IMG/VR virus record: IMGVR_UViG_3300009104_000054
Coordinates: 1-37,231 of that record
Length of the DNA: 37,231 nucleotides
Direction: 5' to 3' (one strand)
Source of the DNA: a virus
Shown here: in pieces, positions 5,474-28,504 of the stretch
Layout of the letters: each line of letters starts with the position of its first letter
Numbering within the stretch: the stretch's first letter is position 1
Position numbers and translations under genes: made by a program
The notes under the pieces: model-generated
What the model saw: only the letters and a program-made list of their open reading frames with translations
What the model was told of the DNA's origin: nothing
The model's database searches: none

Positions 5474-7389
5474 CAGTAGTCTCCCTGCATGGCAACCGCT
5501 TCCGTCTCCTCAATCGCTTGAGCTTCGGGTTGCGGAACTTGTCCGGTCATTGCTTGAATCTCCATCTGGCCCTGTTCCTCTTTACTCGGCATGAAACCAA
5601 GCTGCACAAGATACTCCTCGACATCCTTCCGCAATGCTCTCGCGTTGTTGGTGTCCAGTTCCTCGTAGGCATTTAGGAGTTCGCCCAGTCTGGAGCTAAT
5701 GGCTTGCTGGCCTTGAGGCGGAATCTGCATACCGCTCTGTCTGGCCTTCTCAAGGAACTGCATCAGCACCCCGATCCTTACCCGATAATCCTGACCGCCC
5801 TGAAGCGGAATCATCTCCCCAATCAACAGTGCCGGGATCAGTTTCTTCTCGTCAGCAACCTCGTTGCCCTCCTTCTCGTTCGGGTCTTGCACCAGCCTCG
5901 GAATCAGTGACGGGTCTTCCAACTCAAGAATGCTCTTGTCCAGCTCAACCTGATTGATCCACGGGCTTCCCGCAAACAACTGCTTCCTCTGCACCGCCTT
6001 GTTCAGCAACATCGCCTTGCTAATCATGTCCATGCCGCCACGCGGTTCAATCTGGTACTCGTCATGTAACGCAACCGGATCAACCATCAAGCTGTCCTCA
6101 AGGAATCGGTACTGCAAATCCTCTCCATCAAACTGAACCAGAAGCTCCCATGCCTGACGGTATAAGCTCCCCAATGCCTGACGGAAAAGTCGCAACCTTA
6201 AATCCATATTCTGCTGGGCTTGGGCATTTATGGACTCAATCTCGGTGGCCGTCCGGCGGTCACTTGAACCTCCAGCCTGATTGATTCCATAATCAGGAAC
6301 CGTAACACGGTTCTCCGCAACTGACTGTGTTAACTGCAACTCCTTGTCAAAGTCCACAGGCGGCTGAGGCATCGTGACAGGCGCAATGCCGAAGGGCAGA
6401 ATCTGTCCGGGCTTCATCCGCAGGTTAACTGAGTTGGGCAAATCCCGTTCAGCCCTGAAGAGTGGCTGATTGAAGAGCGTTCCGCAGTCCATCCGCTCAT
6501 TCCAAACCTTGTTCAAGCTGGCCTCGAAAGCTCCGAGCATCTCGCACACGCCACGGGGGCTGTACCAACCGCCATCAGTGATCTCGTACTCACACGAAAC
6601 AAACGGGGGTTGGCCATGATCGTAAGGAACCTCCATCGTATCCCGCAACTTGATGTCCGGGGCTTGGGGTGAGAAGGTTTCAACCTCCCATTTCCCGTCC
6701 TTCTCTCTCCGGTTATAAACTTCCCAGACAATTACCTGATCCTTGTCAGGACTAAACGTCAAGCCCTCGCGTATCTCGCGCTTGTTGCGGAGATCATTAC
6801 TGATACCTTCGTCCTCAGACATCCCACCCCGAATCTGGTCAGTAATCTTCTTCGAGTCCTTATAAATTCCAGCTCGCTTATAGGCGGCGAGGCTCATGGG
6901 CAAAACGTGTGTAAACCTGTCGGCACTATCCATGCCTTTCGTCCAAGGCGGAACAATGACATACATCGGGTCAACCGCCTGAAACTCAACCCGCTTCTTG
7001 TCCGGGTTCCAAAACACCTTCATCACTCCCCGACCACCCATCAACATATGGTCGATCCAGCTCATTACTTCCGGTGCGTAGTTGCTCTTCTCATGCAGCT
7101 TATAGCTGAACCACTGTTCAGCCGCTGTCGTGAAACCTGCGAGCTGCGATCTCATCGGCACGAACGTGGCCAACACCTCAAGACCCATCGCTTGCTGAAA
7201 GAACCCCGGCTTCAGCTTATTGATGGTTGTGTCTATGAGGGGGAAGTGGGTATCAGCAGCGTTCGGCCACGGCTTGTGCTTACGACGCAAACCGTTGTTA
7301 CGCATCTGATACCAAAGTCCCTGCCGCGTCTCCCACTGGGAGCGCGACCTGATGTCGTCCAGTACCTCTGTATAAAGCTCTTCGCTCAT
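5473..7389 (-). CDS. Portal protein (head-tail connector)
   Basis: This 638-aa protein would form the dodecameric ring through which DNA enters and leaves. Length and features fit podovirus-type portals: an N-terminal segment with WPNAADTHFPLIDTTINKLKP, a wing/stem region with WEVYNRREKDGKWEVE, a TVPDYGINQAGGSSDRRTAT-type stretch followed by Gln-rich helices, and a disordered acidic C-terminus. The start overlaps the stop of the small basic gene upstream (ATGA). The order terminase, portal, scaffold, capsid supports the call strongly. The subfamily is not resolved. Confidence 0.9.
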   Translation of the reverse strand: MSEELYTEVLDDIRSRSQWETRQGLWYQMRNNGLRRKHKPWPNAADTHFPLIDTTINKLKPGFFQQAMGLEVLATFVPMRSQLAGFTTAAEQWFSYKLHEKSNYAPEVMSWIDHMLMGGRGVMKVFWNPDKKRVEFQAVDPMYVIVPPWTKGMDSADRFTHVLPMSLAAYKRAGIYKDSKKITDQIRGGMSEDEGISNDLRNKREIREGLTFSPDKDQVIVWEVYNRREKDGKWEVETFSPQAPDIKLRDTMEVPYDHGQPPFVSCEYEITDGGWYSPRGVCEMLGAFEASLNKVWNERMDCGTLFNQPLFRAERDLPNSVNLRMKPGQILPFGIAPVTMPQPPVDFDKELQLTQSVAENRVTVPDYGINQAGGSSDRRTATEIESINAQAQQNMDLRLRLFRQALGSLYRQAWELLVQFDGEDLQYRFLEDSLMVDPVALHDEYQIEPRGGMDMISKAMLLNKAVQRKQLFAGSPWINQVELDKSILELEDPSLIPRLVQDPNEKEGNEVADEKKLIPALLIGEMIPLQGGQDYRVRIGVLMQFLEKARQSGMQIPPQGQQAISSRLGELLNAYEELDTNNARALRKDVEEYLVQLGFMPSKEEQGQMEIQAMTGQVPQPEAQAIEETEAVAMQGDY

Positions 7390-7550
7390 TTTAATCCATA
7401 CTTCTTACCACCCGCAGCCTTGCGTGGCGCAGATGCCATCTTGCGGCGTCCAGCCTTGGTAACTTTACGCTTGAGACTCTTACGCGCTCCGCGCCTTGCT
7501 CCGAGTGAGTCGTCCTGTCTTGCCTTGTATCCTTGTTTTTTTGCTGCCAT
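7386..7550 (-). CDS. Small basic protein upstream of portal (54 aa)
   Basis: The start at 7550 has AAAGGA about eight bases upstream. The stop overlaps the portal start by four bases (ATGA). The protein begins MAAKKQGYKARQDDSLGARR and is then almost wholly Lys/Arg/Ala/Gly. I recall similar short proteins beginning KKQGYKARxDESLGxRRG beside portal genes in other phages, but their function is unknown to me. The charge suggests nucleic acid binding or an internal head role. Its first 71 bases overlap the end of the upstream gene in another frame. Confidence 0.75.
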   Translation of the reverse strand: MAAKKQGYKARQDDSLGARRGARKSLKRKVTKAGRRKMASAPRKAAGGKKYGLK

Positions 7551-7647
7551 TGGTTTTTCCTTTAGTTGTTTCCTGTTCCCATTTCTTTGCCATTGCTGGC
7601 TTGTTAGCGTGCATCCACCTTCGTTGCTTCTTACTCTTAAACGGCAT
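7480..7647 (-). CDS. Small phage protein of the PFKSKxQRRWM type (55 aa)
   Basis: The protein starts MPFKSKKQRRWMHANKPAMA and continues KKWEQET. I recognise this as a widespread short phage family whose members begin PFKSKAQRRWM(Y/F)A and have AKxWxxET. Its function is not known. The usual family length is about 40 residues, so the C-terminal 25 residues here are extra and overlap the next gene in a different frame. The start overlaps the upstream stop by one base (TAATG) and has a GGAAGAGG tract ahead of it. Confidence 0.75.
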   Translation of the reverse strand: MPFKSKKQRRWMHANKPAMAKKWEQETTKGKTNGSKKTRIQGKTGRLTRSKARSA

Positions 7648-7781
7648 TACCTGCCTCTTCCACGATTACGACCTCGCGGGGCAACTTTCCCCGCTTTCAA
7701 GTCTTCCTTGGTCGGCACAGTAAATCCTTGTGGCGTGACTTCTCCCGCCTTGGCTTTGGGTTGTTTAACTTTCTTTGCCAT
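7647..7781 (-). CDS. Very short basic protein (44 aa)
   Basis: The start at 7781 is preceded by GGATAGGTAAG. The 44 residues are Lys/Arg/Pro/Gly-rich, with MAKKVKQPKAKAGEVTPQGF at the start and an RGRNRGRGR tail. There are no motifs beyond basic charge. It is packed between the zinc-type protein and the PFKSK gene and coupled to the latter by TAATG. It may bind DNA or RNA; this is inference. Confidence 0.6.
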   Translation of the reverse strand: MAKKVKQPKAKAGEVTPQGFTVPTKEDLKAGKVAPRGRNRGRGR

Positions 7782-11259: not shown

Positions 11260-12264
11260 ATGAAAACCAAAACAAAAAAGACGGTCTATCAAATCATCAC
11301 CGACCGCATTATCAAGGCACTCAAAGACGCAATCGCCAAGGGCGAGAGCGCACCATGGCACAAGCCATGGGCAACAAATGGCGCGTACCCAATCAACTAC
11401 AATACCCAAAAGAATTACCGGGGCGTCAATGTGTTCTTGCTTCACATGATGGGCTATGAATCGCCCACATGGCTCACCTTCAAACAAGCCAAAGAGGCGG
11501 CGGTAAAAGAGGCGCGTGCAGATGGGCGCGACATAGAAGAAACAACCAAGCCCACAAAATGGGGCACGAAATCCACGTACACAGAAGACGGTGAACCATT
11601 CAAGGGCGGAGTAAAGAAAGACGAGAAGGGAACTCCCGTTGTCTTTTGGAATTGGATAATGAAAGACGCCAATGGCAAGACAACCAAAGACGAGAAGCAA
11701 TGCGTTAAGAAAATCCCTTTCCTGAAATACTTCACCGTATTCAATATAGCGCAATGCGATGGCGTCGCGGACAAATGGGAAAAGCCTGAAGGCAAAGACC
11801 ACGAGCCCATCAAGGCGGCGGCGGATATAGTCGCGGACATGCCAAACGCGCCAACGATTGAACACAAAGAGGCGCGTGCATATTACAAGCCCGCATCGGA
11901 TACGGTGAACATGCCCCGCTTGGCATTGTTCGACACGCCAGAAGAATACCACAGTACACTATTCCACGAGCTGGTGCATAGTACCGGGCACGCATCGCGC
12001 CTTAATCGCGACGGTGTAACGGGCACGGTTCAATTTGGTTCACAGAATTACAGCAAAGAGGAATTGATTGCTGAGATGGGCGCGGCAATGTTATGCGGCG
12101 TCGCGGGCATAGACAACCAAGCCCTGAATGATAATAGCGACGCATACATGCGGGGCTGGATTAGTAAGCTCAATGATAATCCTGAGATGGCAGTTCTTGC
12201 CGGGGCACAAGCCCAAAAGGCGGCGGACTATATCCAAGATATTAAGCACGATAATAAGGGCTAA
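11260..12264 (+). CDS. ardC: ArdC-like antirestriction protein
   Basis: This 334-aa protein has the two-domain plan of ArdC. Residues about 5-150 are the N-terminal single-stranded-DNA-binding domain, with APWHKPWATNGAYPINYNTQ and a NYRGVNVFLL segment. The C-terminal part is a zincin metallopeptidase domain with HELVHSTGH at 236-244; two His ligands and the catalytic Glu are intact, and E272 in ELIAEMGAAML is the likely third ligand. ArdC proteins shield incoming DNA from type I/II restriction on plasmids and phages. The start has a GGAAACAGC leader. It is the earliest recognisable gene of the early block, fitting a need right after DNA entry. Whether protease activity is needed is not decided by sequence. 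Confidence 0.92.
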   Translation: MKTKTKKTVYQIITDRIIKALKDAIAKGESAPWHKPWATNGAYPINYNTQKNYRGVNVFLLHMMGYESPTWLTFKQAKEAAVKEARADGRDIEETTKPTKWGTKSTYTEDGEPFKGGVKKDEKGTPVVFWNWIMKDANGKTTKDEKQCVKKIPFLKYFTVFNIAQCDGVADKWEKPEGKDHEPIKAAADIVADMPNAPTIEHKEARAYYKPASDTVNMPRLALFDTPEEYHSTLFHELVHSTGHASRLNRDGVTGTVQFGSQNYSKEELIAEMGAAMLCGVAGIDNQALNDNSDAYMRGWISKLNDNPEMAVLAGAQAQKAADYIQDIKHDNKG

Positions 12265-17519: not shown

Positions 17520-17981
17520 ATGCCAGACACAACAACTGAAAGCGTGTGGAACACAATCGAGGTAGAGCTACTTCCCTGTCCGTTCTGCGGGGTGGACGCA
17601 GAGACAGACTACTATAATGACAGGGGCGGCGACCACGGGGATGTGTTCTACATTAGATGCGAGGACGGCTGCGTGACCCTGAGCGACTCTACTCCAGAAG
17701 AGGTTTGTGATACGTGGAACACGCGAGCTGACAAACTGCTGGTGAAACAAGCACATAAGTTTACTCAGAAAACGAGAATGGCATATCACTCTACCACTTT
17801 TGCCTTGGGGATGCTCAAGGAGATGAAGGAGGTTGCTGACTGGATGATTGCTGTGGTTAAACCGGATAGCGATGGCGAGTACGTGGGTCATAGCTGTCCA
17901 TCTCTCGAACTTAAAAGTATGTCTGATGACCTGAAAAGACTGGGGTGGGTTAGGAAGGACAAGGATGAACAGCAGAAGTAA
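17520..17981 (+). CDS. Lar-like restriction alleviation protein (153 aa)
   Basis: The N-terminal 70 residues match the Lar zinc-ribbon family: LLPCPFCGVDAETDYYND (C20, C23), then IRCEDGC (C47, C51) and a terminal DTWNTRA. Lar of the Rac prophage alleviates type I restriction, and this short ribbon is common in phages. The remaining 80 residues are helical and contain KEMKEVADWMIAVVKPDSDG, which is not part of the family; this extension may add a second function. The start has AAAGGAAG upstream. Confidence 0.78.
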   Translation: MPDTTTESVWNTIEVELLPCPFCGVDAETDYYNDRGGDHGDVFYIRCEDGCVTLSDSTPEEVCDTWNTRADKLLVKQAHKFTQKTRMAYHSTTFALGMLKEMKEVADWMIAVVKPDSDGEYVGHSCPSLELKSMSDDLKRLGWVRKDKDEQQK

Positions 17982-18318
17982 AGGCAAACGAGGCGAGCTT
18001 GAATGGCGTGACCAGATCATCGCCGCCGGGAAGGAGCGCGGCAAAGAGTGGGAGGCTCGACGAGGGCAGCAGTTCTCAGGCAATCCAGACAGCCCAGACG
18101 TAGTGACTAACCTACCCTTTCACTTTGAAGTTAAGCGAGTCGAGAGACTAAACATAGATAGTGCAATGAAACAAGCAGAAGGCGAGTGCGGGGACAAGCC
18201 CCCACTGGTTGCCCATCGCAAGAATGGTGGCCCGTGGATGGTGACGATGCTCGCACCAACCTTCTTTAACCTAATAGAAGAAAGAGAAACCAATGCCAAA
18301 CAAAGAAAGCAGCAGTGA
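17965..18318 (+). CDS. Holliday-junction-resolvase-like PD-(D/E)XK nuclease (117 aa)
   Basis: The start overlaps the Lar-like gene by 17 bases and has GGAAGGACAAGG upstream. Motifs fit resolvase-like nucleases: E11 in GKRGELEWR, D45 in DSPDVV, E55 and K57 in FHFEVKRVE, and a later LVAHRKNGGPWMVTM. All catalytic residues are present in the right order. The product probably cuts branched recombination or replication intermediates before packaging. It lies next to the ERF gene, which makes a recombination module. A related VRR-NUC-type nuclease is an alternative. Confidence 0.78.
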   Translation: MNSRSKGKRGELEWRDQIIAAGKERGKEWEARRGQQFSGNPDSPDVVTNLPFHFEVKRVERLNIDSAMKQAEGECGDKPPLVAHRKNGGPWMVTMLAPTFFNLIEERETNAKQRKQQ

Positions 18319-18853
18319 CACACTGACAACCGTGCTGGCCAAGGCTCAGTCGGAACTAAAGAAAGCAGCCAAGTCGGCTGACAACCCCTACTTCAAGTCG
18401 AAGTATGCGGGGCTGGACGAGGTGATAGAAGCCTGTCGTAACACGCTCAATAAGCACGGCATCGCCGTGACTCAGACTGTGGAGTGTGTGCCGGGAGCGA
18501 TAAGGCATCCTCACCCCTACTCAGAAGAAGGGGAGGCGGTAACTACCGAGCAGCAGACAGTCCTCGCGACTACCCTGCTCTACGGGGATCAGTCCATCAG
18601 GAGCGTTATCCCCTTGGACTACAAGCGTGGTGATATGCAGTCCTTCGGGTCGGCCATGACCTATGCGAAGAGGTATGGGCTGTCTTCGATATGCTGCCTT
18701 GCCACTGAGGACGCACTGGATGATGACGGCAACAAGGCTGTGGGCGAGGAGAAAGTTGCGGCGAAGGTCAACAAGCGCAGCAACTATCGCAAGCCCAAGT
18801 CAATCGCACAGGAAGTAGCACCAGCCACTACGGCCGAGGACTTCCTGAAATAA
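18293..18853 (+). CDS. erf: ERF-family single-strand annealing protein
   Basis: This 186-aa protein has the ERF domain: NPYFKSKYAGLDEVIEACRN (31-50), HGIAVTQTV, and GSAMTYAKRYGLSSICCL (119-136) followed by the acidic TEDALDDDGN. ERF proteins anneal complementary strands, and in P22 they drive circularisation and recombination. The C-terminus is basic, ending in an acidic EDFLK, the common tail that contacts SSB. It overlaps the resolvase-like gene and is followed by a structured RNA element. Confidence 0.9.
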   Translation: MPNKESSSDTLTTVLAKAQSELKKAAKSADNPYFKSKYAGLDEVIEACRNTLNKHGIAVTQTVECVPGAIRHPHPYSEEGEAVTTEQQTVLATTLLYGDQSIRSVIPLDYKRGDMQSFGSAMTYAKRYGLSSICCLATEDALDDDGNKAVGEEKVAAKVNKRSNYRKPKSIAQEVAPATTAEDFLK

Positions 18854-18974: not shown

Positions 18975-19154
18975 ATGGACAACAGGGAGTCAAAAAAAAA
19001 TCAAGTTATACTGGACGAACACCTTGTTAATCTACGTGCCTATGGTGATGCCACGCGGTTGGGCCTAACAGATTCTGGGTCTCGCGCTCAACGTAGGTGG
19101 CGGGATCGGTTGGATCGGCTAAGGGCCAAGCGTGAAGCTAAAAGGAAGAAATGA
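18975..19154 (+). CDS. Small basic protein (59 aa)
   Basis: AAGGAG lies six bases before the ATG, and the stop overlaps the next start (ATGA). The protein (MDNRESKKNQVILDEHLVNL, then RRWRDRLDRLRAKREAKRKK at the end) is strongly basic at its C-terminus. It is likely nucleic-acid binding. No family is recognised. It is the first gene after the structured element. Confidence 0.65.
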   Translation: MDNRESKKNQVILDEHLVNLRAYGDATRLGLTDSGSRAQRRWRDRLDRLRAKREAKRKK

Positions 19155-19429
19155 GATCATATGACGGTATGGATTCGTACGAGTTTATGCACTCCAACGG
19201 CAACTACCGAGTGCTGGCTTATATGGTTCAACCGTTCTTTGATAATGAGGATGGAGAGCTGATGCCCGACACTCCGATCATGAAGTTTATCCCGCTGGAG
19301 AATGACTCAGGAGTCCTCGACGCGATGAGGCACAGGAAGACGGCCTATAACAAGGAGTACTGGAAGCGGTATAAAGAGAGACGAGAGAGAAGAAGAAATG
19401 AAGGAGGATTATGTTTGGAAAACACCTAG
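19151..19429 (+). CDS. Unknown early protein (92 aa)
   Basis: The protein is coupled to the upstream gene by ATGA. The N-terminal half is aromatic and mixed (SYEFMHSNGNYRVLAYMVQP). The C-terminus is a very basic helix (EYWKRYKERRERRRNEGG). No known motif was found. Its last 19 bases overlap the next gene. Confidence 0.65.
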   Translation: MRSYDGMDSYEFMHSNGNYRVLAYMVQPFFDNEDGELMPDTPIMKFIPLENDSGVLDAMRHRKTAYNKEYWKRYKERRERRRNEGGLCLENT

Positions 19430-19728
19430 TCATAGAGAGCAACGATCTGTACAGGGCGCAGCTAGAGAGTAAGGATGCCAAAGGGATTCCATCCTACTTT
19501 AAGATTGAGATAGGGCTTTACGACTGTGCGTGGCTTGACGGGTTTAGGTGCGTTACGACAGGCGGGGAGACGTCTGACGATTGGGATAATCCGTATGTAA
19601 AAGAGAGGGAGTGGGCTTATCAGGCGTGGAAAGCTGGGGCTTTAGCTGGTGAATCTTACAACGAGTATCTCGCAAAAGAGATCAGGGTAAGAGAGGAGAT
19701 GGAGATTGATGATAGAAAAAGAAATTGA
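19411..19728 (+). CDS. Unknown early protein (105 aa)
   Basis: GAAGGAGG lies five bases before the ATG, inside the end of the previous gene. The sequence is rich in Trp, Tyr and Gly (YDCAWLDGFRCVTTGGETSD, then WAYQAWKAGALAGESYNEYL). It ends in charged residues. No family is recognised. Its end overlaps the start of the split nuclease gene by 20 bases. Confidence 0.65.
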   Translation: MFGKHLVIESNDLYRAQLESKDAKGIPSYFKIEIGLYDCAWLDGFRCVTTGGETSDDWDNPYVKEREWAYQAWKAGALAGESYNEYLAKEIRVREEMEIDDRKRN

Positions 19729-19915
19729 CCACGAACATCGGGCGCATCACAAGGACTTCCCGCCTTCATCGCTGCCAGCACTGGCCAAGTGTCCGTGCTA
19801 CCGATCATCAGACACAGTGGGGGCGGCAGCTATTCGCGGCACAAAGCTACACGAAAGGCTTGAAGCCCTGCTAACCAACGGGGATTTAAAGAAGTATATT
19901 AAGCCCGATGCTTGA
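19709..19915 (+). CDS. Cas4-like/DUF2800-type nuclease, N-terminal half (interrupted)
   Basis: The start at 19709 has GGAG upstream. The 68 residues hold what is normally the N-terminus of Cas4/RecB-like phage exonucleases: HHKDFPPSSLPALAKCPCYR, with the first Fe-S-type cysteine, and AAAIRGTKLHERLEALL, with the GTxLHE histidine motif. The frame ends after YIKPDA, far short of a full enzyme. The catalytic part continues 1.3 kb downstream as a separate gene (21210). The last codons lie in an 11-bp repeat shared with the downstream junction. Either the gene is broken by insertion, or the enzyme works as two chains. Confidence 0.75.
   Translation: MIEKEIDHEHRAHHKDFPPSSLPALAKCPCYRSSDTVGAAAIRGTKLHERLEALLTNGDLKKYIKPDA
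19901..19911 (+). repeat. 11-bp direct repeat AAGCCCGATGC, left copy
   Basis: This sequence occurs at the end of the N-terminal nuclease half and again at 21203-21213, where the C-terminal half begins. The distance is 1302 bases (434 codons). In both places one frame reads KPDA. It may be a target-site duplication or a short homology used for insertion. Confidence 0.6.
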
Positions 19916-19985
19916 CCACATGGAATACAACAGCCAAGGCGATGAGCGCAACCGCAAGATCACCAATAACATTGGACGCCCATGA
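19908..19985 (+). CDS. Possible 25-aa peptide at the insertion edge
   Basis: An ATG inside the 11-bp repeat opens a 25-codon frame (MLDHMEYNSQGDERNRKITN, then NIGRP). Its stop overlaps the next start (ATGA). It could be real and coupled, or only a by-product of the junction. No ribosome site is evident. Without it, 19916-19981 holds nothing recognisable. Confidence 0.25.
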   Translation: MLDHMEYNSQGDERNRKITNNIGRP

Positions 19986-20320
19986 AACAACATTCACTAC
20001 AAAGTACCAGTCCATACTCATTAGACGGTACTGACATACAGAAAGACACAACTAAAATGAAGGATAGATCACCTAGCGAAATAAGGGAACAAGCCATCAT
20101 GTGTTTTAAGCAGATGGCACGACCCAAGTACAACATGGGCCAACGGGAAAAGGGAACCAATCTTGATGACCACCCTGATCTGGTTGGGGCCATTAGGGAG
20201 GAACTGGTTGATGGCTGGTTCTATCTCGACAGCCTAGCCAAGCAGATTGATGACAAGAACAGTCGCATAGCAGATCTGGAGTCCGAGGTTGAGCGATGGA
20301 AGGAGCAAGCTAAAAGGTAA
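19982..20320 (+). CDS. Unknown protein inside the interrupted nuclease (112 aa)
   Basis: No family is recognised. The protein has a polar N-terminus, a central part with IREQAIMCFKQMARPKYNMG and a GAIREELVDGWFYLDSLA helix, and a C-terminal coiled coil (IDDKNSRIADLESEVERWKE). An inner ATG at 20057 is an alternative start. It lies two bases before the PD-(D/E)XK gene and is probably co-translated with it; the coiled coil could serve as partner or oligomer domain. Confidence 0.62.
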   Translation: MKQHSLQSTSPYSLDGTDIQKDTTKMKDRSPSEIREQAIMCFKQMARPKYNMGQREKGTNLDDHPDLVGAIREELVDGWFYLDSLAKQIDDKNSRIADLESEVERWKEQAKR

Positions 20321-20322
20321 GC

Positions 20323-20841
20323 ATGGACATCAACACACCAAAGGGCCAGAAGTCATTGGGATACGAGCGGGATGCGGTGTGTCTGTTCTGCAAGCTCTAC
20401 CCTCAGTACCAGTTCATCGAGACAAACAAGAACACCCCCGCAGCCATAGACGGCTTCTTCTGTCTGGATGGTGGGAGTCAAATTGACTATGCGGTTGAGA
20501 TCAAGACCCGCAACATGACAAAGGAGATGTTGCATAATCGGTTTGGCAACACATGGCTCGTCACCTACGACAAGATTATCAGGGGGCAACAGGTAAGCGA
20601 CCTGCTGTGCGTACCCTTCATCGGTATGCTCTACCTGATCCCTGACAAGATACTTTACACGTTGAAGATCACCGATGAGCTGGGGAAGTTCGTCATTGAT
20701 TTCGGGGTGGACAACACGCGCACACAGGAAACCATAAACGGGGGGTTGGCATGGCGTACCAACGCATACCTCTCAATGGAAACAGCCAAGGAGCATCAAT
20801 GGAATACAAGACAACGTGCAGACTATGCAAGAACGAGATAG
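20323..20841 (+). CDS. PD-(D/E)XK-type nuclease inside the interrupted nuclease (172 aa)
   Basis: The start lies two bases after the previous stop. The core motif is AAIDGFF (Asp about residue 46) followed by DYAVEIKTRNMT (Glu 64, Lys 66). A strand-helix region with FGNTWLVTYDKIIRGQQVSD and LLCVPFIGMLYLIPDKILY follows, and a TRTQETINGGLAWRTNAYL end. I recognise this layout from short phage proteins with a V(E/D)xK centre, usually without assigned function. The residues fit a restriction-like or homing-type endonuclease. Its place in a 1.3-kb block that splits another gene fits an invading nuclease. Confidence 0.68.
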   Translation: MDINTPKGQKSLGYERDAVCLFCKLYPQYQFIETNKNTPAAIDGFFCLDGGSQIDYAVEIKTRNMTKEMLHNRFGNTWLVTYDKIIRGQQVSDLLCVPFIGMLYLIPDKILYTLKITDELGKFVIDFGVDNTRTQETINGGLAWRTNAYLSMETAKEHQWNTRQRADYARTR

Positions 20842-21008
20842 TGATAGAGATTAACGATGAGAAGGACTCAGCGGCCAAGGAGGTCGGGGTCAATCTGGAC
20901 ACATGGATAAGCAACTCGAAAGTCCTATGCGAACCATGCTACACCTACAAGGAGACGGGGAGTAGGCCAACCAACACGCCACCCATGAAGGACTTTCTGT
21001 TCGAATGA
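20799..21008 (+). CDS. Small zinc-binding-type protein (69 aa)
   Basis: The ATG at 20799 has AAGGAG five bases upstream, inside the end of the nuclease gene. Two cysteine pairs are present: TTCRLCKNE near the N-terminus and LCEPCYTY about 35 residues later. Between them lies an acidic helix. The spacing fits one zinc ribbon. It ends KDFLFE. It may be a DNA-binding accessory; no family is recognised. Confidence 0.62.
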   Translation: MEYKTTCRLCKNEIVIEINDEKDSAAKEVGVNLDTWISNSKVLCEPCYTYKETGSRPTNTPPMKDFLFE

Positions 21009-21223
21009 AACATAGACATGGAACCATCGAGGAGTGGGAGATCATAGCCAAGGAATGCCTTGCCGATCCTCACGCAAGCAGGAGTGAATGTCTCTCTGCC
21101 CTGATCGGGATTACCCAGAGCAAGGATGAGTGGCTCAAGGAGAAGCTCGCAGCGCAGATGAAGATAGCGTGGAAGGCGAACACCGCAATACTCAGGAAGA
21201 TGAAGCCCGATGCCGAGAAGTAA
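21005..21223 (+). CDS. Unknown small protein ending in the repeat (72 aa)
   Basis: The start overlaps the upstream stop (ATGA). The protein is helical (TIEEWEIIAKECLADPHASR, then KEKLAAQMKIAWKANTAILR) and ends KPDAEK. These last residues are encoded by the right copy of the 11-bp repeat, in the same frame as the YIKPDA end of the N-terminal nuclease half. The tail may thus derive from the ancestral nuclease sequence rather than from this gene. Confidence 0.58.
   Translation: MKHRHGTIEEWEIIAKECLADPHASRSECLSALIGITQSKDEWLKEKLAAQMKIAWKANTAILRKMKPDAEK
21203..21213 (+). repeat. 11-bp direct repeat AAGCCCGATGC, right copy
   Basis: This is identical to 19901-19911. It provides the ATG (21210) from which the C-terminal nuclease half is read, and in another frame the KPDA codons at the end of the 72-aa gene. 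Confidence 0.6.
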
Positions 21224-21797
21224 ATATCCCAAGGAAGTAATATGGTCAGCGCAGTACATCATGTCTGTCGTTGGTCGGAAGAAGCTCATCACTGAGGAAC
21301 GCATCTCAGTCATGCGAGACGGCGAGGAGATCACGTTCGGCAGCATGGACGCCTATTGCAAGGGCCACCTGTTCGACCTGAAGACCGGACAGAAGCGGGA
21401 CTACAAGCAACAGATGGCGGCGTATGCGCTGGGCGTTATGCAGAAGTACGGTGACAAGGAGCTTACTTGCCACCTAGTTTACTCCCGCTTCAAGGGTGTG
21501 GATAAGTTCTCTTTGACCCGTGAACAAGCTGAAGATATTGTCTACGCCATCGTTGACTCCGTTAACGATCCCACCCGCTCACCGTGGCCATGTGAATACT
21601 GCGCTTGGTGTGCCAGAAAGGAATCTTGCACAGCTTTAAAACATTTTGCTTATACCATCGGCGGACAGATGGACGCGATGAAGCACATCAATCTCAATGC
21701 CCCACTGAAGCCAGCCGTTCGTCAACGGTTACTCTCCATCGTCGATGCGGTGGAGAATTGGTCAGAGGGCATTAGGGAAAAGGTAAACAAGGAATAG
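21210..21797 (+). CDS. Cas4-like/DUF2800-type nuclease, C-terminal catalytic half
   Basis: This 195-aa product has the catalytic core of Cas4/RecB-like exonucleases: D in TFGSMDAYC, D-x-K in LFDLKTGQK, and the QMAAYALG motif. A cysteine cluster CEYCAWCARKESC follows, giving the three or four C-terminal cysteines that, with one N-terminal cysteine, hold the Fe-S cluster in this family. The N-terminal GTxLHE segment is missing and is found in the gene at 19709. Its frame is closed just upstream by TGA, so translation must begin within the repeat. KYPKEVIWSAQYIMSVVG would follow KPDAEK naturally if one T were absent after GAGAAG (near 21220). It is likely a 5'-3' resection enzyme for ERF, if active. 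Confidence 0.8.
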   Translation: MPRSKYPKEVIWSAQYIMSVVGRKKLITEERISVMRDGEEITFGSMDAYCKGHLFDLKTGQKRDYKQQMAAYALGVMQKYGDKELTCHLVYSRFKGVDKFSLTREQAEDIVYAIVDSVNDPTRSPWPCEYCAWCARKESCTALKHFAYTIGGQMDAMKHINLNAPLKPAVRQRLLSIVDAVENWSEGIREKVNKE

Positions 21798-21801
21798 TAA
21801 T

Positions 21802-22101
21802 ATGCCTGAAGATACAAAACCAAAGCTGACCTTCTCGAAGGCCGCACGCAAAGCCTACCTCTACAAGAATGAAAAGAAGAGGGAAGGCTCTAAAGACCCT
21901 GACTATAAGGGTAAAATATTCGACCTCAACGTCAAGGAGCTGGCTGAGATTGCTGATGAAGAAGGCAACGTCACCCTGTTCCTGTCCGGTTGGGTCGAGG
22001 AAGACCAGAGTGGAACCACGAGGGTCGGTGTATCCGTCCAGAAGGGTATCCCACAGGAAGGAGCAGCAGTAGCGGCAGAACCCGCCAATGCACCATTCTA
22101 A
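21802..22101 (+). CDS. Small DNA-replication-associated protein, ssDNA-binding-like (99 aa)
   Basis: The start lies four bases after the nuclease stop. The protein contains KNEKKREGSKDPDYKGKIFD, then a strand-rich part (NVTLFLSGWVEEDQSGTTRV then GVSVQKG) and an Ala/Pro tail. Short phage proteins with a KNEKKxxGSKDPDYxGxI start and an SGWxxE strand occur beside recombination genes and resemble small OB-fold single-strand-binding proteins. This identity is inferred from pattern and context. It is the last gene before a strong terminator. Confidence 0.6.
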   Translation: MPEDTKPKLTFSKAARKAYLYKNEKKREGSKDPDYKGKIFDLNVKELAEIADEEGNVTLFLSGWVEEDQSGTTRVGVSVQKGIPQEGAAVAAEPANAPF

Positions 22102-22176
22102 CCTTGCTGAGTGGCAAGGCTAAACCTCCCCCTCCCTGTTTGTAATACTGCTGTTTCGGGGAGGGGGAGTCTTTTT
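22102..22176 (+). terminator. Intrinsic terminator with preceding hairpin
   Basis: CTCCCCCTCCC (22126-22136) and GGGAGGGGGAG (22159-22169) form a perfect 11-bp stem with a 22-base loop, followed by TCTTTTT. A smaller hairpin CCTTGC-N6-GCAAGG (22102-22119) lies just before it and directly follows the stop of the 99-aa gene. This would end the main early transcript. Confidence 0.85.
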
Positions 22177-22199
22177 CAACCGCAACACAAACTTATGTT

Positions 22200-22607
22200 A
22201 TGAAGACTAAAGACAAGCGCATCACTGATGTTGACAGGGCTTATCACCGAATGGCTGTGCTGGCCACGGCAATAGGGTTCGACGTTCACGAGGCGGACAT
22301 CGGGGGTAGAAGCCGCAGGGACAGGGTTGCCCATGCGAGAATGACGGGCTACTGGCTAATGCGAACCTCGATAGGCACACCCTACGAGATTATCGGAATC
22401 CTGTTCGGGAGGGATCATTCTGGGGTCATGTACGGCTGCGGAAGGATCAGCGACATGATCGAGCTTGGCACGACGACCTACAGCAATAACTGGGCAAAGG
22501 AGATTAAGGAATCCCGCAAGCGATTCGCCAAGTTCCACAAGGCTCGCGTTGAGGTCGATGTGGAGCGCAAGCTAAAGGAGGTGGCAAGTGTCATTGAATC
22601 TACCTGA
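22200..22607 (+). CDS. Stand-alone DnaA domain IV-like DNA-binding protein (135 aa)
   Basis: Residues about 36-100 match the DnaA C-terminal DNA-binding domain: a basic loop and helix (GGRSRRDRVAHARMTGYWLM), a helix-turn-helix with TPYEIIGILFG, and the signature GRDHSGVMYGCGRISDMI (DnaA: GRDHSTVxxAxxxI). The AAA+ domain is absent, so it cannot form a normal initiator filament. It could bind DnaA boxes to seize, mark or block initiation. The basic C-terminus (KKRFAKFHKARVEV-like) may add DNA contact. It lies after the terminator, so it needs read-through or its own promoter; none is clear in the 23 bases between. Confidence 0.8.
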   Translation: MKTKDKRITDVDRAYHRMAVLATAIGFDVHEADIGGRSRRDRVAHARMTGYWLMRTSIGTPYEIIGILFGRDHSGVMYGCGRISDMIELGTTTYSNNWAKEIKESRKRFAKFHKARVEVDVERKLKEVASVIEST

Positions 22608-22812: not shown

Positions 22813-23065
22813 TGAAAGTGACACAACCCTTTGTAATGGCTGTTGCATCCACAGTAGGGTCTTTCTCGACTTCAGCGTACTGGCTAGAGGCCACGACAAT
22901 GAACTGCTTGTGGATTTTCAACAAGACCCCAACGGTTACACACGGGAAGGGCTTCACCTTGGACAGCTCATCCTGAACGTAACCTGCGGGGTCAAGCCAT
23001 TGCACCTTCACCCGCTTCCCTACCCAGCTCTTCGGGAACTTGTTCCTATATCCTCTCCCAATCAT
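22799..23065 (-). CDS. Unknown small protein, last late gene (88 aa)
   Basis: The start at 23065 lies inside the end of the nuclease gene. The protein has a basic start (MIGRGYRNKFPKSWVGKRVK) and then a strand-rich part (VQWLDPAGYVQDELSK, VTVGVLLKIHKQFIVVAS) and GCVTFINLI. This pattern (SWVGKxVKVxWxDPxG) suggests a small barrel domain; no function is known to me. It ends the late block, converging on the last early gene. Confidence 0.68.
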   Translation of the reverse strand: MIGRGYRNKFPKSWVGKRVKVQWLDPAGYVQDELSKVKPFPCVTVGVLLKIHKQFIVVASSQYAEVEKDPTVDATAITKGCVTFINLI

Positions 23066-23477
23066 CCTTGTACTTCTCCCACTTGCTGACGAGCCTGTTC
23101 CCCTTTCCTTTACCTGCCGGGAACAGGACGGCAATACTCGACCCGTCCTTGGAAGTCTCCTCAACGGGAATGATGTAGTATCCATCATGGATCATGTCCT
23201 CAAAGTCATGCGAGTAGGGGGCGAAGAGAACCATGAAGTCACAGTCGCCCCTCGTATAGCTGAGGTTCTTTGTGCGGCAATGCTTTAGTGAGCAGCGATA
23301 GCTTCCGCCCTTGTTGATGTTGGCTGACTTGACCTGTATCCGTCTGGCCTTTCCATCCTTCTCAGCAATCAAGTCGTAAGAGTCCTCATTGAGAGGCCAG
23401 CTTACTGTGAATCCACGCTCAACAAGTTTCTTTGCGACGGCAAGTTCCGCAACACTGCCTGTTCTTTTTGGTTCTAT
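23046..23477 (-). CDS. PD-(D/E)XK nuclease without a normal start codon (143 aa)
   Basis: The conserved region starts EPKRTGSVAELAVAKKLVER, then D35 in DSYDLIAEKDGK, the Q-V-K centre RRIQVKSA (K50), and CDFMVLFAPYSHDF. This is the pattern of PDDEXK endonucleases of the group I intron/PF11645 type. The frame is closed 5' by TGA near 23510, and between there and the conserved region there is no ATG, GTG or TTG. A GGAGG site lies at a normal distance from an ATA (23475-23477). A TTG at 23372 would remove D35. Options are an AUA start, a -1 frameshift from the preceding gene, a sequencing change of ATG, or a dead gene. Confidence 0.65.
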   Translation of the reverse strand: MEPKRTGSVAELAVAKKLVERGFTVSWPLNEDSYDLIAEKDGKARRIQVKSANINKGGSYRCSLKHCRTKNLSYTRGDCDFMVLFAPYSHDFEDMIHDGYYIIPVEETSKDGSSIAVLFPAGKGKGNRLVSKWEKYKDDWERI

Positions 23478-23494: not shown

Positions 23495-26400
23495 CTATTT
23501 CTTTTTCTGCGACCCCTCTTCAACGGCTATGTTCACCAATGCCCGCTCAGTCGCGCCGTTAAGGAACCCAGTGCCCGTGAGATAGTTCCGCCACTGCAAC
23601 TGTTCAAGCTCTCTCTGGTTCTTGCTCGCTTGGTCGAGTTCCTTGGTAGGGGTCGGCCAACGCTCGTTAAAGTCCTTGAGGTACAGTTCGGCCCTCTTCA
23701 TTGGGGTAAGGCTCAATGATGTCTTCTCGTCCCAAGTGAGCTTCTTTTGAATCCCGTTCAGCCTGTTCTGTATGGCTGTCCTGATCCTTGTGTCCTCACT
23801 GAACTCACCCAAGTCGCTATATTTCCTGTGCATCCTGAGCCACAACTCTGAGGTCTTCTTGGTTCCGAAGTTACCGACATCCTCTGCGTCAACGTCTTTC
23901 ACATTCTCTTCCACCCAATCCCCGGCAATCCGGTTCGCCTTCATTGCCTGTGTGGCGTCCTCCTTGAGCTTCTTCTCCAAGTATTTCTGCCTTCGCTCAT
24001 CCACCATGAAGTTCGAGGCCACGAACCTTGAGAGGAACATCCCCTTGATGTGATTAAGCGTTTCACTGTCATAATACTTGCGCCCTTTCACTTTCCGCTT
24101 CGGCACAAATTGCCCAATTAAGTCGGCTGTCCAAGTCTCAACGGCGTGCTTCAGCCTGATGGGGCTTCCGCCATATAGGTTCGCAGCCGCGATGTACCCC
24201 GCCTCAGTGGACGGCTTCCGCTGTTCACTTGGGTCTGGGGTTACGCCCCTGCGTTGAGGCATAAGGTATCTCTTGCGCCATGAATCACGAATGTTGTCAC
24301 CGGAAGCAGTCTCGTACAGGTATTTCAAGGCTGGGTTTGACTGGGAAATCAGCCCCTCTTTAATCCCGGAAATATCCGACCCAAGCTCCAACGGCCCGAA
24401 GTCCCCCGCTGTCCGCCAGCCAATGTCTGCTACAGCCTTGCCGATGGTGTAGTCAGGGTCTTTCTCGAACGCCATATTGACAAATCCTTCCGCGATGTTG
24501 GCAACCCCTCGCAAGAGGTCGCGCTTGGGCAGCTTGATGGCATCACGCTTGAAAAACTTCCGCAGGTGGGCAGGGATTTCATCCTCCAGAATCAGCCCGT
24601 TACCGTCCTTGTCCAGAGACTTCACCAGATTCATCTTCTCAATGTCCGTGCCATGCGCCGCGACGAAACTCTCCTTGAAGAATATCCAGTAATTATCTCG
24701 TTCCTGCTGGGATGTGTTCAGGTAATCCTCCCGGTAATCTCTCTGGTTGTTGATCGCGTGCCATACAGTCGGGAGAACCACTGCCCCCATCATCCTCGCC
24801 ACTGCCTTTCGTCCTTCGGGGCTTTTAAGGTCTGTAACCCTCTGGAGATCACGGGCAGCACCCTGCATCCGGGCATTGTAGAACATGAACAATACGTCCA
24901 TCTGTCTGCCCCACCTTCCTGAAACCGAGAACTGCGGCGAACCCATTTGCTTCATCACTTCCCTGCGCCACTCCGGGTTCTCCTCGAAAAACCTCTCCAT
25001 GTTGCGAATGTACCGCCCGTTCTTGTCCTTTATCTTGGGAACCTTCTCGAAGAAACCAAGCCCGCGCTCCTGTCGCAATGCCCGCTCAATTCCCACCAGC
25101 TTGCCCATCTCCTCAATCGCATCAGGGATGACATCTATCCATCGCGCTCCCTTCTCGAACCCCTGAACACCACGCTCAACCGTCGTCCCCTGCAACATAC
25201 CGTCAAACCTCGGAAGCCGCCCCACCAGATTGTAGTCAGGATCAATGGCGTTCTTCAAAGTTTGACCTGTCAGCCCGCTTCTGGCTGCTTCCCTGTAAAA
25301 GTCTCCCGGCTTACCCATGTTCCCCATGAATGCCCTAGCGAATGCAACCGGATAGTCAACCGCAATGAACCTCGCCCAGTCAATAGGATTGACCCTCAGC
25401 CCTGTCCGGGCAGTTAGTGCGTTGGTCGGAAGATCAGACAGTAGCGCATTGACGATCTGGAACGGGGCCGACCACTTGGTTGCTCCAACCTTGAGTGGCC
25501 TCGATGTATGGGCCAAGAGTCTCCAAGCCGCATGCTGCTTTTCCCCGAATGAATTGATCGCCTCGGCAACACCTGAATCAACGGCGTACCTTTCCACGTT
25601 GCCGTTGCGGATAACAGTGAACTCGCCCATACCCGGTGGAGTCTCCTTTTTCTTGCCGAGCCTCTGCATGAATGCTTCAACCCCGCCAACATTGGTCTTC
25701 TCGCCTTCAGGCCCAACCACCATGTCCTTCAGGTCGCGCTCCATGATGTCCACAAACTCGCGCTTGGCCTTGTTGTATTCCACAATGACAGTGATGTCGT
25801 GCAGCTTATTCCGCATTGTCTCAGCCACATCAGCAATCGTAAATGCAGGGTCATCAATCCCGGTTACGCGGTGGAGAGATAGCTTTTCCCTACCCACTTT
25901 ATCCCGCAACCCAGTCGCCTTTCCCTCGTCCTTCAAATATTTCTCAAGCATCCAAGGGGTATAGTGTTCATTGGAAAGCTCAATCCTGATGCGCTGCTCC
26001 TTGCTGATAATGCCTCCCTCCACCAGCGTGTCCATCATCTTGCTCGCCTCAGCGCGGAATGCCCCGCCAATTTCCTCCAGCTTCTTAAACTGTTCAGGGG
26101 TGATGTCCTTCTTGAACAGTTTCATCGTGTCCTTGACCATCTTCGGTGTCCAGTATTTCACTTCACCGTTGTCTTCGAGGAAAGCGGCAACTCTCTTGTC
26201 GCTCCTCGCCTTGAGGTTGCTCTTGATTTCCTCAAGGTCTTTGATGTAGGCATCGACTCCCTTCCTTTCTTTACGGGCGTATTCCGCACCACCCGCAAAC
26301 AGCTCCTTCGCCCCCTCGATCTCCTTGTCGATCTCCTTGATCTGATCGCTGCGAGACTTCCCTGACTTGAGCCTGTCCTCCATGCGTTTCAGGAAGGAGT

Positions 26401-28504
26401 ACACCCCGAACTCCTTGCTCAAGCCTGATTCCTTGAGCGGAACCGATACCGCCTCGTCAAAGGACAAAACTCTTTCCTTGGCTTTTGCGTAGCTGCCCGG
26501 AAGGAACTCGAAGAACATTTCCGCCGGGGCTCCCGCCTCCTTCACGCCATAAAACTTCTCCATGCTCCTCTGGAGGGCAGTTGCGGGCCTGAACGATGTT
26601 ACCTGCGAGGTTATAGCCCTGTCCCACAGGCTCATCCTGAATTTATCTCCAGCAACTTCAGGGTCTTCCCCTTTTAGCCAACCCCAGAAACGGCCCCAGC
26701 CTCCACCTTCACCGCCTCCCTTGCCCGCGTCACCGAACCCAGCCTGACGCTTGGCAATTTCCAGTAACTCTGCCGCCTTTGCTGCCTTTGCTGCCTTTAC
26801 TGCTTCGCCCTTCTTCATGGCATCGAGGAGGTGCTGCTTGACTTCTCCCCCACGACTTTCCCGGCTCCTTAATGCCTCCACTACCTGATTGAGGTCTGCC
26901 TTCAGGGCATCCTCGACCGGAACATCCTTCGCTATCTCCGGGTCTTTGGGTAATGGAATATCCTTACGCAACGGAACATCAAGGGCCATCTCCGGGTCTT
27001 TAGCCATCTCCGGGTCTTTGGGTAATGGAATATCCTTCAGTGGGGGTGGTTCCTTCAGCGGAACTTCCGGCCTGATTGGGGTGTCCTTTATCAAGGCGTC
27101 CCTTACGGAAGTCTTGGGAGCCCCCTCAGCCGTTGGCTCAACAGCAGTTCCTCTTTGATGCTCAAACAAGAGTTGCTGCTCCCCCACCCTAGCATAAAAG
27201 TCTGGCCACGATTCGTCTGGCAACTTCTCCAGAACCTCACGTTCCCTAACCTTGGGCTCTTCAATCGGCTTGGGTTCAGCTTTCTTGCGCCTGACAGACT
27301 CCCGGTAAACCTTCATTGCCTGTGTAGGGGTCTTGACGTTGGCACTCTTGAACTCGCTCTTTAGAGCCCCCTTCATCGCCCCGCCAGCAAACAAGGTAAG
27401 CAACGCCTGTCCCACAAAGGCTTCCGTTTTGTCTTGAAGTGAGACATCAGGGTTTTCCAGAATCCTCATCAACTCCGGGTGATGCTCAATAACATTTCTG
27501 GTGAGGTCTAGGGAGAATGCACCATGACCAGCCCGAAGGATCGCCGGGGCTTCCTTCGCTACCACGCCAAACCCCATAGTCGCCGCACCGCCGGGAGACA
27601 CGATTGACTCGGTAAGACCATTAACAGCGTTCAGTATTCCAACCGCAACGTCCCGACCAACACCGCCCCCCGGAAACAGTGTCTTAACGTCCTCTTCCCT
27701 TATCTCTGGTATATCCAGAGGCGACTCGAATAATCCGCTAATAAGCCCGTGCTTATCCAGCTTACTTCCCATCGGCTTATATTCGCCAAGGTATCCAACT
27801 TCTGGCCCCCAGAGCTTGCGAGCAGCCTCGCTGCTCCTGAATGCTCCGTAAGGGGATCGCGGGGGAGCTGGGCCTACAGTCTTCCCCCCAAGGGCCGTTC
27901 GAGCCTTGGCCATTGCCGTGCCGACCTCCTGATCCATTTCAATGGCATCCAGCGACTTCCCGAAATGCTTGAACCTCAAGCCGAACTCTCCCTCAAACTC
28001 ATCCAACTTACGAATGAGCGCGTCCTCCTCCTCTTTCGCTAAACTTCTGGCCTCTTTTCGCCTGTCCTCCTCGGAGGTCAATGGGAGCGTCTCAGAAAGG
28101 CGTGTCACCTTGTCAACCCAAGCCTTTCTGTCCTGTGCTATCTCTCGGTAGAAAGGGGCAAGTCTTTTTTGGGTTTCCCAGTGCTTACGCTCGCGCTCGT
28201 CCCTTTCCAGTTCGGGAATTTTCTCATACCACTCCCTAGCTCTCGCGGCCTGTTCCCTTTCTATCTCTGCTGCCCTACCCTCAGCCTCCTTCTCAGCCTC
28301 CTTGCGCTTACGCAACCTTTCGTAAATCTTTTCCTGCCCTGTTAATTCCTTCTCTGTCTCGACAATGGGCTCAGGCTTCTCTTCCCCGACAACAGTGAAG
28401 GGCTTGCTGAAGTCAAACCCCGACTCCTTTTCCGTCTCCTTCGGCTTCTCCTTAACAACCGTGAAGGGCTTGCTGAAGTCAAACTCTGTTGGGGGTTCGG
28501 CCAT
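23495..28504 (-). CDS. Very large internal virion/ejection-type protein (1669 aa)
   Basis: This is the longest gene. Residues 8-17 and 30-39 are two copies of FDFSKPFTVV. Residues 45-200 are a charged coiled coil. Around 500-540 lie KDIPLPKDPE(M/I)AKD repeats, and near 600 a Lys/Ala/Gly-rich linker. The C-terminal half has long amphipathic helices, with SAPFQIVNALLSDLPTNALT and a VLFMFYNARMQGAARDLQRV segment of the type seen in large polyvalent phage proteins (LPD38-like). Such proteins are packed in the head and enter the cell with the DNA, forming a conduit or carrying enzymes. I see no polymerase, lysozyme or protease motif. Its 3' end, AAAAAGAAATAG, may allow slippage into the next frame. 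Confidence 0.8.
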   Translation of the reverse strand: MAEPPTEFDFSKPFTVVKEKPKETEKESGFDFSKPFTVVGEEKPEPIVETEKELTGQEKIYERLRKRKEAEKEAEGRAAEIEREQAARAREWYEKIPELERDERERKHWETQKRLAPFYREIAQDRKAWVDKVTRLSETLPLTSEEDRRKEARSLAKEEEDALIRKLDEFEGEFGLRFKHFGKSLDAIEMDQEVGTAMAKARTALGGKTVGPAPPRSPYGAFRSSEAARKLWGPEVGYLGEYKPMGSKLDKHGLISGLFESPLDIPEIREEDVKTLFPGGGVGRDVAVGILNAVNGLTESIVSPGGAATMGFGVVAKEAPAILRAGHGAFSLDLTRNVIEHHPELMRILENPDVSLQDKTEAFVGQALLTLFAGGAMKGALKSEFKSANVKTPTQAMKVYRESVRRKKAEPKPIEEPKVREREVLEKLPDESWPDFYARVGEQQLLFEHQRGTAVEPTAEGAPKTSVRDALIKDTPIRPEVPLKEPPPLKDIPLPKDPEMAKDPEMALDVPLRKDIPLPKDPEIAKDVPVEDALKADLNQVVEALRSRESRGGEVKQHLLDAMKKGEAVKAAKAAKAAELLEIAKRQAGFGDAGKGGGEGGGWGRFWGWLKGEDPEVAGDKFRMSLWDRAITSQVTSFRPATALQRSMEKFYGVKEAGAPAEMFFEFLPGSYAKAKERVLSFDEAVSVPLKESGLSKEFGVYSFLKRMEDRLKSGKSRSDQIKEIDKEIEGAKELFAGGAEYARKERKGVDAYIKDLEEIKSNLKARSDKRVAAFLEDNGEVKYWTPKMVKDTMKLFKKDITPEQFKKLEEIGGAFRAEASKMMDTLVEGGIISKEQRIRIELSNEHYTPWMLEKYLKDEGKATGLRDKVGREKLSLHRVTGIDDPAFTIADVAETMRNKLHDITVIVEYNKAKREFVDIMERDLKDMVVGPEGEKTNVGGVEAFMQRLGKKKETPPGMGEFTVIRNGNVERYAVDSGVAEAINSFGEKQHAAWRLLAHTSRPLKVGATKWSAPFQIVNALLSDLPTNALTARTGLRVNPIDWARFIAVDYPVAFARAFMGNMGKPGDFYREAARSGLTGQTLKNAIDPDYNLVGRLPRFDGMLQGTTVERGVQGFEKGARWIDVIPDAIEEMGKLVGIERALRQERGLGFFEKVPKIKDKNGRYIRNMERFFEENPEWRREVMKQMGSPQFSVSGRWGRQMDVLFMFYNARMQGAARDLQRVTDLKSPEGRKAVARMMGAVVLPTVWHAINNQRDYREDYLNTSQQERDNYWIFFKESFVAAHGTDIEKMNLVKSLDKDGNGLILEDEIPAHLRKFFKRDAIKLPKRDLLRGVANIAEGFVNMAFEKDPDYTIGKAVADIGWRTAGDFGPLELGSDISGIKEGLISQSNPALKYLYETASGDNIRDSWRKRYLMPQRRGVTPDPSEQRKPSTEAGYIAAANLYGGSPIRLKHAVETWTADLIGQFVPKRKVKGRKYYDSETLNHIKGMFLSRFVASNFMVDERRQKYLEKKLKEDATQAMKANRIAGDWVEENVKDVDAEDVGNFGTKKTSELWLRMHRKYSDLGEFSEDTRIRTAIQNRLNGIQKKLTWDEKTSLSLTPMKRAELYLKDFNERWPTPTKELDQASKNQRELEQLQWRNYLTGTGFLNGATERALVNIAVEEGSQKKK
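26934..27037 (-). repeat. 32-bp exact repeat in the internal virion gene
   Basis: The plus-strand segment that starts atctccgggtctttgggt occurs at 26934-26965 and 27006-27037, 72 bases (24 codons) apart. A partial copy lies between them at about 26987-27003. It encodes KDIPLPKDPE-type units. Recombination would add or remove whole codons. Confidence 0.75.

Follow-up and report, generated by a model that had tools for sequence, protein, structure and literature searches.

The window, that is, the whole 37,231-nt stretch of viral DNA that was analysed (IMG/VR record IMGVR_UViG_3300009104_000054), carries a run of plus-strand genes in which two ORFs with the motifs of one nuclease flank a block of small genes. 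The features of this run are as follows.

17965–18318, plus strand: RusA-like/PDDEXK_15 resolvase-type gene (phrog_244, E 3e-18; PDDEXK_15 below cut-off)
18293–18853, plus strand: ERF-family single-strand annealing protein, likely the partner recombinase (Pfam ERF, E 6e-25; phrog_155)
19709–19915, plus strand: N-half of the split nuclease, 68 aa, with PPSSLPALAKC28PC30Y and an RGTKLHE helix, ending YIKPDA; positions 4–62 of the whole-enzyme profile
19901–19911, plus strand: left copy of the 11-bp repeat AAGCCCGATGC, at chance level
19982–20320, plus strand: orfA, 112 aa, with the family-typical start probably at ATG 20057; homologues in 20 of 23 block-type loci
20323–20841, plus strand: central-slot gene, 172 aa, a predicted stand-alone PD-(D/E)XK nuclease with an Hjc/SPARDA-nuclease-like fold; family in 7 loci
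20799–21008, plus strand: small CxxC...CxxC protein, 69 aa; homologues in further loci
21005–21223, plus strand: orfD, 72 aa, ending KPDAEK, directly upstream of the C-half, the start of which is overlapped by its 3′ end
21203–21213, plus strand: right copy of AAGCCCGATGC, at chance level, 1302 bases from the left copy
21210–21797, plus strand: C-half of the split nuclease, 195 aa, with D47, D56LK58, Q68MAAY72, C128, C131, C134 and C140; positions 56–248 of the whole-enzyme profile
21802–22101, plus strand: SSB-like protein directly after the C-half (phrog_18154, single-strand DNA binding protein, E 5e-4)

The RusA-like, ERF, split nuclease and SSB genes form a predicted Red-type recombination module. 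Elsewhere in the window were found an anti-restriction protein (11260–12264; phrog_7245), a Lar-like restriction alleviation protein (17520–17981; phrog_599), a PDDEXK_5-like nuclease on the minus strand (23046–23372; E 9e-5, below the Pfam cut-off), and a 1669-aa protein on the structural-gene strand (23495–28504, minus), which had no PHROG match at E 0.001. A clear PDDEXK_5 match was also observed at 7295–7732 (minus) of contig L066.

Relatives were IMG/VR contigs found with the C-half and the N-half as queries, in which both halves were then mapped; contig scans of genomes using the C-half and the terminase returned no relatives. All 27 related contigs reaching both halves, one half being cut by the contig end in three of them, were split around a gene block and are here called the block type. 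The N-half stop precedes the block, which measures about 0.5–2.0 kb (500–1960 bases), and the C-half has a start of its own. Where a contig shows one half only, it stops short of the place of the other, and the N-half was never found alone except at contig ends. The conservation of the split is far beyond chance, every relative able to show the split having it. The whole-enzyme profile, generated from alignment A5, had exactly two matches per genome in 10 genomes, at positions of about 4–62 and then from 35–58 on, adjoining each other in model coordinates, and no intact copy of the nuclease was found with it elsewhere in these 10 genomes, six block-type records being among those searched.

Statistically, the dN/dS of most pairs was about 0.08–0.28 for the N-half and about 0.03–0.16 for the C-half, the close pair L020/L021 being uninformative, with an N-half dN/dS of 0.88 on a dS of 0.04. 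Both halves are under purifying selection, with dN/dS mostly about 0.1. Divergence of the N-half correlated with that of the C-half (r = 0.81), as did that of the SSB (0.82), compared with 0.22 for the ERF protein. The distances of the two halves being in step and that of ERF not, this indicates that the halves stay together despite exchange of the upstream ERF gene and of the slot gene lying between them. The split is a genuine, conserved and old feature rather than the scar of a recent insertion, and an assembly error as its cause was rejected, because the same structure appeared in these 27 contigs and in seven further ones described below.

In the Pfam search, the C-half matched DUF2800 (PF10926; E 2e-7, 30.8 bits against a cut-off of 21) with the match starting at profile position 101, and in the PHROG search it matched the phrog_69 exonucleases (E 2e-12). 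The N-half alone had zero Pfam matches, the window's C-half gave no match to the Cas4 Pfam model PF01930 at E 0.1 (this model reached E 0.012, below cut-off, with contig L044), and a PDB sequence search using the C-half profile returned nothing significant. Jointly, the N-half and C-half span one intact DUF2800/Cas4-AddB-type nuclease. Among 17 aligned block-type sequences, D47, D56/K58, Q68/Y72, C131, C134 and C140 of the C-half, as well as C28, G44, T45, L47, H48 and E49 of the N-half, were invariant in all 17, and the RGTKLHE helix of the N-half, a GTxxH-type motif, aligned with intact relatives. The D...DxK...QxxxY core, the upstream GTxxH-type helix and the curated family score that characterize RecB-like/DUF2800 enzymes were thus all found; what was not found was a single polypeptide, two ORFs being present in every block- and overlap-type record examined. 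The staple pattern of Cas4/AddB was likewise found, with C28 on the N-half and C131, C134 and C140 on the C-half, all kept in intact relatives, and the dispensable cysteines are C30 and C128, as seen in L080, L067 and L075. C128 is invariant among the aligned block-type sequences and also present in the intact L079 and L080, lost in L075, and absent from L067.

A preliminary description of this DNA, made from its sequence, had reported the 68-, 195- and 72-aa ORFs and the two copies of AAGCCCGATGC 1302 bases apart, all of which were present as described. Its view that a single Cas4/DUF2800-type nuclease is divided over two ORFs was supported by the above analysis, and the cluster cysteines that it assigned to both ends are conserved on both halves. 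It further proposed that a block of genes had been inserted with an 11-bp duplication, and this part did not hold. Exact direct repeats of at least 11 nt numbered three in 19200–22400, compared with a mean of 1.36 and a maximum of 6 in 200 dinucleotide shuffles. The repeat is kept in the near relatives L002 and L004 only, the latter being identical to the window in this region, while it is already broken in L003 and absent from L005–L007. An insertion with target duplication was therefore rejected, since the repeat is at chance level and missing from most relatives. The tail of the 72-aa gene, which had been tied to the nuclease, is not homologous to the N-half tail, and KPDA is conserved neither at the N-half end nor at the end of the 72-aa gene in relatives. 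Close relatives are all split and mostly lack the repeat, a situation that the same description had named as speaking against its insertion, and intact forms exist further away; full-length enzymes devoid of the GTxLHE segment, which it had also named, were not what we observed, as intact relatives have the N-terminal cysteine and a GT-type helix.

The genes between the halves usually follow the order orfA, slot gene, CxxC protein and orfD, and in the window all lie on the same strand. Among 23 loci, the slot is occupied by the window's 172-aa family in 7, by a DUF5843-like/phrog_18407 protein in 11, by phrog_13596 in 3, and by a unique protein in L003. It was observed to hold at least four mutually dissimilar proteins (window 20323–20841, L003 2527–3360, L020 629–1147 and L009 5119–5520), and hhalign between the slot families returned no match on shallow alignments, with which a common PD-(D/E)XK origin is still compatible. 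The AF2 model of the window's slot protein (pLDDT 68, pTM 0.63) matched a SPARDA nuclease and Hjc resolvases in Foldseek, with probabilities of 0.97–1.0 for the best. The other slot proteins have PD-(D/E)XK-looking motifs of DVK/EVK type, recognized by eye only, the structure prediction covering the window's version. No HNH, GIY-YIG or LAGLIDADG family was found among the block genes scanned, the sole HNH signal being a marginal PHROG match (E 0.07) in the block of L006, and an Rfam scan of 19000–22400 returned no intron family, its single match being sub-threshold and to an unrelated family. In several block-type relatives, the expected Shine-Dalgarno site of the C-half coincides with the conserved AWKA codons that end orfD (TGGAAGGC). 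It is possible that orfD is a third subunit.

Seven further contigs, belonging to four diverged groups, have no block, and in them the same two halves are overlapping ORFs. In this overlap type, the C-half ATG lies inside the last 8–17 nt of the N-half (overlaps of 8, 11 and 17 nt), always in the +1 frame relative to the N-half, and the Shine-Dalgarno match of the C-half start is weak or absent, which fits reinitiation after the N-half stop. A C-terminal extension of approximately 85 aa is kept by the overlap-type C-halves (L044, L070, L071 and L075), whereas block-type C-halves are without it. A homologue of orfA sits elsewhere in the genome of overlap-type phages (the L044 match being with the real window protein), and this position fits the movement of existing genes into the gap; orfD was not found in overlap-type records, and the slot families returned no matches there in a search run without a positive control. 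The nuclease is an intact single ORF in three distant relatives (L079, L080 and L067) and in the Akkermansia phages Chambord and Chantilly, all of which align along both halves.

In the phylogenetic tree, block-type (99/99) and overlap-type (99/96) sequences formed separate groups with the intact forms outside. Since the sister group has its split at the same place without a block, breakage of the gene most likely preceded the entry of the small genes. The common break point suggests a single fission as its simplest reading, which is favoured rather than proven, because the intact outgroups have long branches and a weakly supported separation (65/18); the order of events is likewise the one that the sequences point to. 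The natural intact L079 was folded with AF2 using the halves as alignment rows, giving a model of moderate confidence (pLDDT 78, pTM 0.57) that was poorest in the cysteine regions. According to this model and alignment A5, the break falls at about residues 52–54 of L079, in a loop between helices 46–51 and 54–70. The best Foldseek matches of the L079 model were RecE, AdnAB, Cas4 SSO0001, MGME1 and Dna2, with lambda exonuclease lower; the probability was high for the first matches, and all E-values were 0.03 or worse and thus above 0.001.

Based on these data, we consider it quite probable that the two ORFs encode one RecB/Cas4-AddB-type (DUF2800) PD-(D/E)XK exonuclease in two chains, which arose through fission followed by gene entry. 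The ancestral intact gene would have been broken in the loop between the two alpha-helices, the simplest cause being a frameshift indel that placed a stop codon beside a new ATG, and the overlapping ORFs may have been retained through translational coupling, as in the sister phage group. In the lineage of the window, orfA, an exchangeable slot gene, the CxxC protein and orfD would then have gathered between the halves. The chains, made separately from one gene cluster, are predicted to assemble in trans. C28, the first cysteine of the cluster, and the GTxLHE helix would come from the N-half, the D, DxK and QxxxY motifs together with C131, C134 and C140 from the C-half, and the four cysteines would form a putative inter-chain staple of the Fe-S (or Zn) type. 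The probable role of the enzyme is end resection on behalf of the ERF annealing protein and the SSB encoded alongside it. The two-chain assembly, the inter-chain metal site and the exonuclease activity are what we infer from the conserved residues. By analogy with Cas4 SSO0001, in which insoluble protein resulted from changing any one of the four cysteines (PMC3466216), C28 of the N-half should be required in a two-chain enzyme. More tentatively, and rather doubtfully, the staple may hold the chains together with activity requiring both, orfD and/or the slot nuclease may be further subunits, and genes may have been recruited to the fission point. If so, this would be a modular phage recombination nuclease with intervening genes recruited to a conserved fission point.

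Several other readings of the same locus were weighed. That a recent insertion broke the gene and left both pieces as decaying pseudogenes is hardly credible: the split does separate the catalytic core from the GTxLHE helix and the first cysteine, but the 27 contigs share it with all catalytic and cluster residues kept, the selection data contradict decay, and the pseudogene reading was rejected on purifying selection. The preliminary description had left the choice between an inactive and a two-chain enzyme, and purifying selection and co-conservation favour the latter and weigh against the former. The C-half might instead be an enzyme by itself, the N-half having become an accessory or separate protein. 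With C128, the C-half possesses four cysteines and could thus do without C28, which the invariant C128 could replace as the fourth ligand, and the whole D/DxK/QxxxY core lies on this half. We regard this as decidedly unlikely, since the intact L079 and L080 have C128 beside the N-terminal cysteine, C128 is missing from L075 and L067, and the N-half, which is under purifying selection, retains GTxLHE and an invariant C28 and was seen alone at contig ends only.

It is highly improbable that the halves are rejoined, be it through RNA splicing or an intein (block type) or through programmed +1 frameshifting (overlap type). The constant +1 frame of the overlap-type C-half would suit the frameshift, but the would-be shift sites differ (GAA-GTA-TGA, GAA-ATA-TGA and AAT-GAG-TAA) and to our knowledge none resembles the classical +1 motifs, so the programmed frameshift was rejected on the differing stop contexts. 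The block is packed with conserved genes, no intein match was obtained in the Pfam scan, and a group I intron was rejected, as no Rfam family was found in 19000–22400. Split phage enzymes are usually put down to a mobile endonuclease breaking the gene. Here, a free-standing endonuclease would have invaded and split the intact gene (cf. mobE in Aeh1 nrdA), with the chains still assembling, an explanation that agrees with the stand-alone predicted PD-(D/E)XK nuclease inside the window's block and with the variety of slot proteins in relatives, yet seems unlikely. In the sister group the break lies at the same point although nothing is inserted, which is not the pattern of a split by insertion, but an insert that was lost later in that group would also fit; in addition, the block genes scanned offer no homing endonuclease family beyond the marginal HNH match, SPARDA nucleases and Hjc resolvases are the nearest matches of the slot fold, and the window's slot family occurs in only 7 of 23 loci.

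The proposed two-chain enzyme from fission is of interest in several respects. Among relatives, an intact form, a split form without insert and a split form with the block are available for comparison and point to fission first and gene entry second. The predicted staple across two chains would make the role of the Cas4/AddB-type staple, chain-holding or regulating, testable in a natural two-piece enzyme, and switchable recombineering tools might be developed from a natural two-part exonuclease. The open-licence literature yielded no description of a split Cas4/DUF2800 nuclease. Other split phage enzymes, namely NrdA and the gene 43 polymerase, are functional, and the gene 43 case (gp43A/B of an Aeromonas phage) also permits a split first and an insert later (PMC2988022).

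Compared with known systems, the C-half matches both DUF2800 (PF10926) and phrog_69 exonucleases and the halves together align along intact phage enzymes, whereas here there are two ORFs and the C-terminal extension seen in intact forms is missing from the block-type C-half. As in the Cas4/AddB four-cysteine Fe-S staple nucleases (PMC3466216), one N-terminal and three C-terminal cysteines surround the D/DxK/QxxxY motifs; unlike them, the cysteines lie on two polypeptides, and the window's C-half does not match the Cas4 Pfam model. Aeh1 NrdA, T4 topoisomerase gene 60 and Aeromonas phage gp43A/B (PMC2988022) are similarly conserved phage enzymes encoded as two ORFs with DNA between them, but here the break separates metal-cluster ligands, relatives without an insert exist, and the insert consists of several genes with an exchangeable slot. 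Finally, the order of RusA-like gene, ERF, nuclease and SSB resembles the two-component phage recombination modules of an annealing protein and an exonuclease, from which this locus differs in that its nuclease partner is encoded by two genes.
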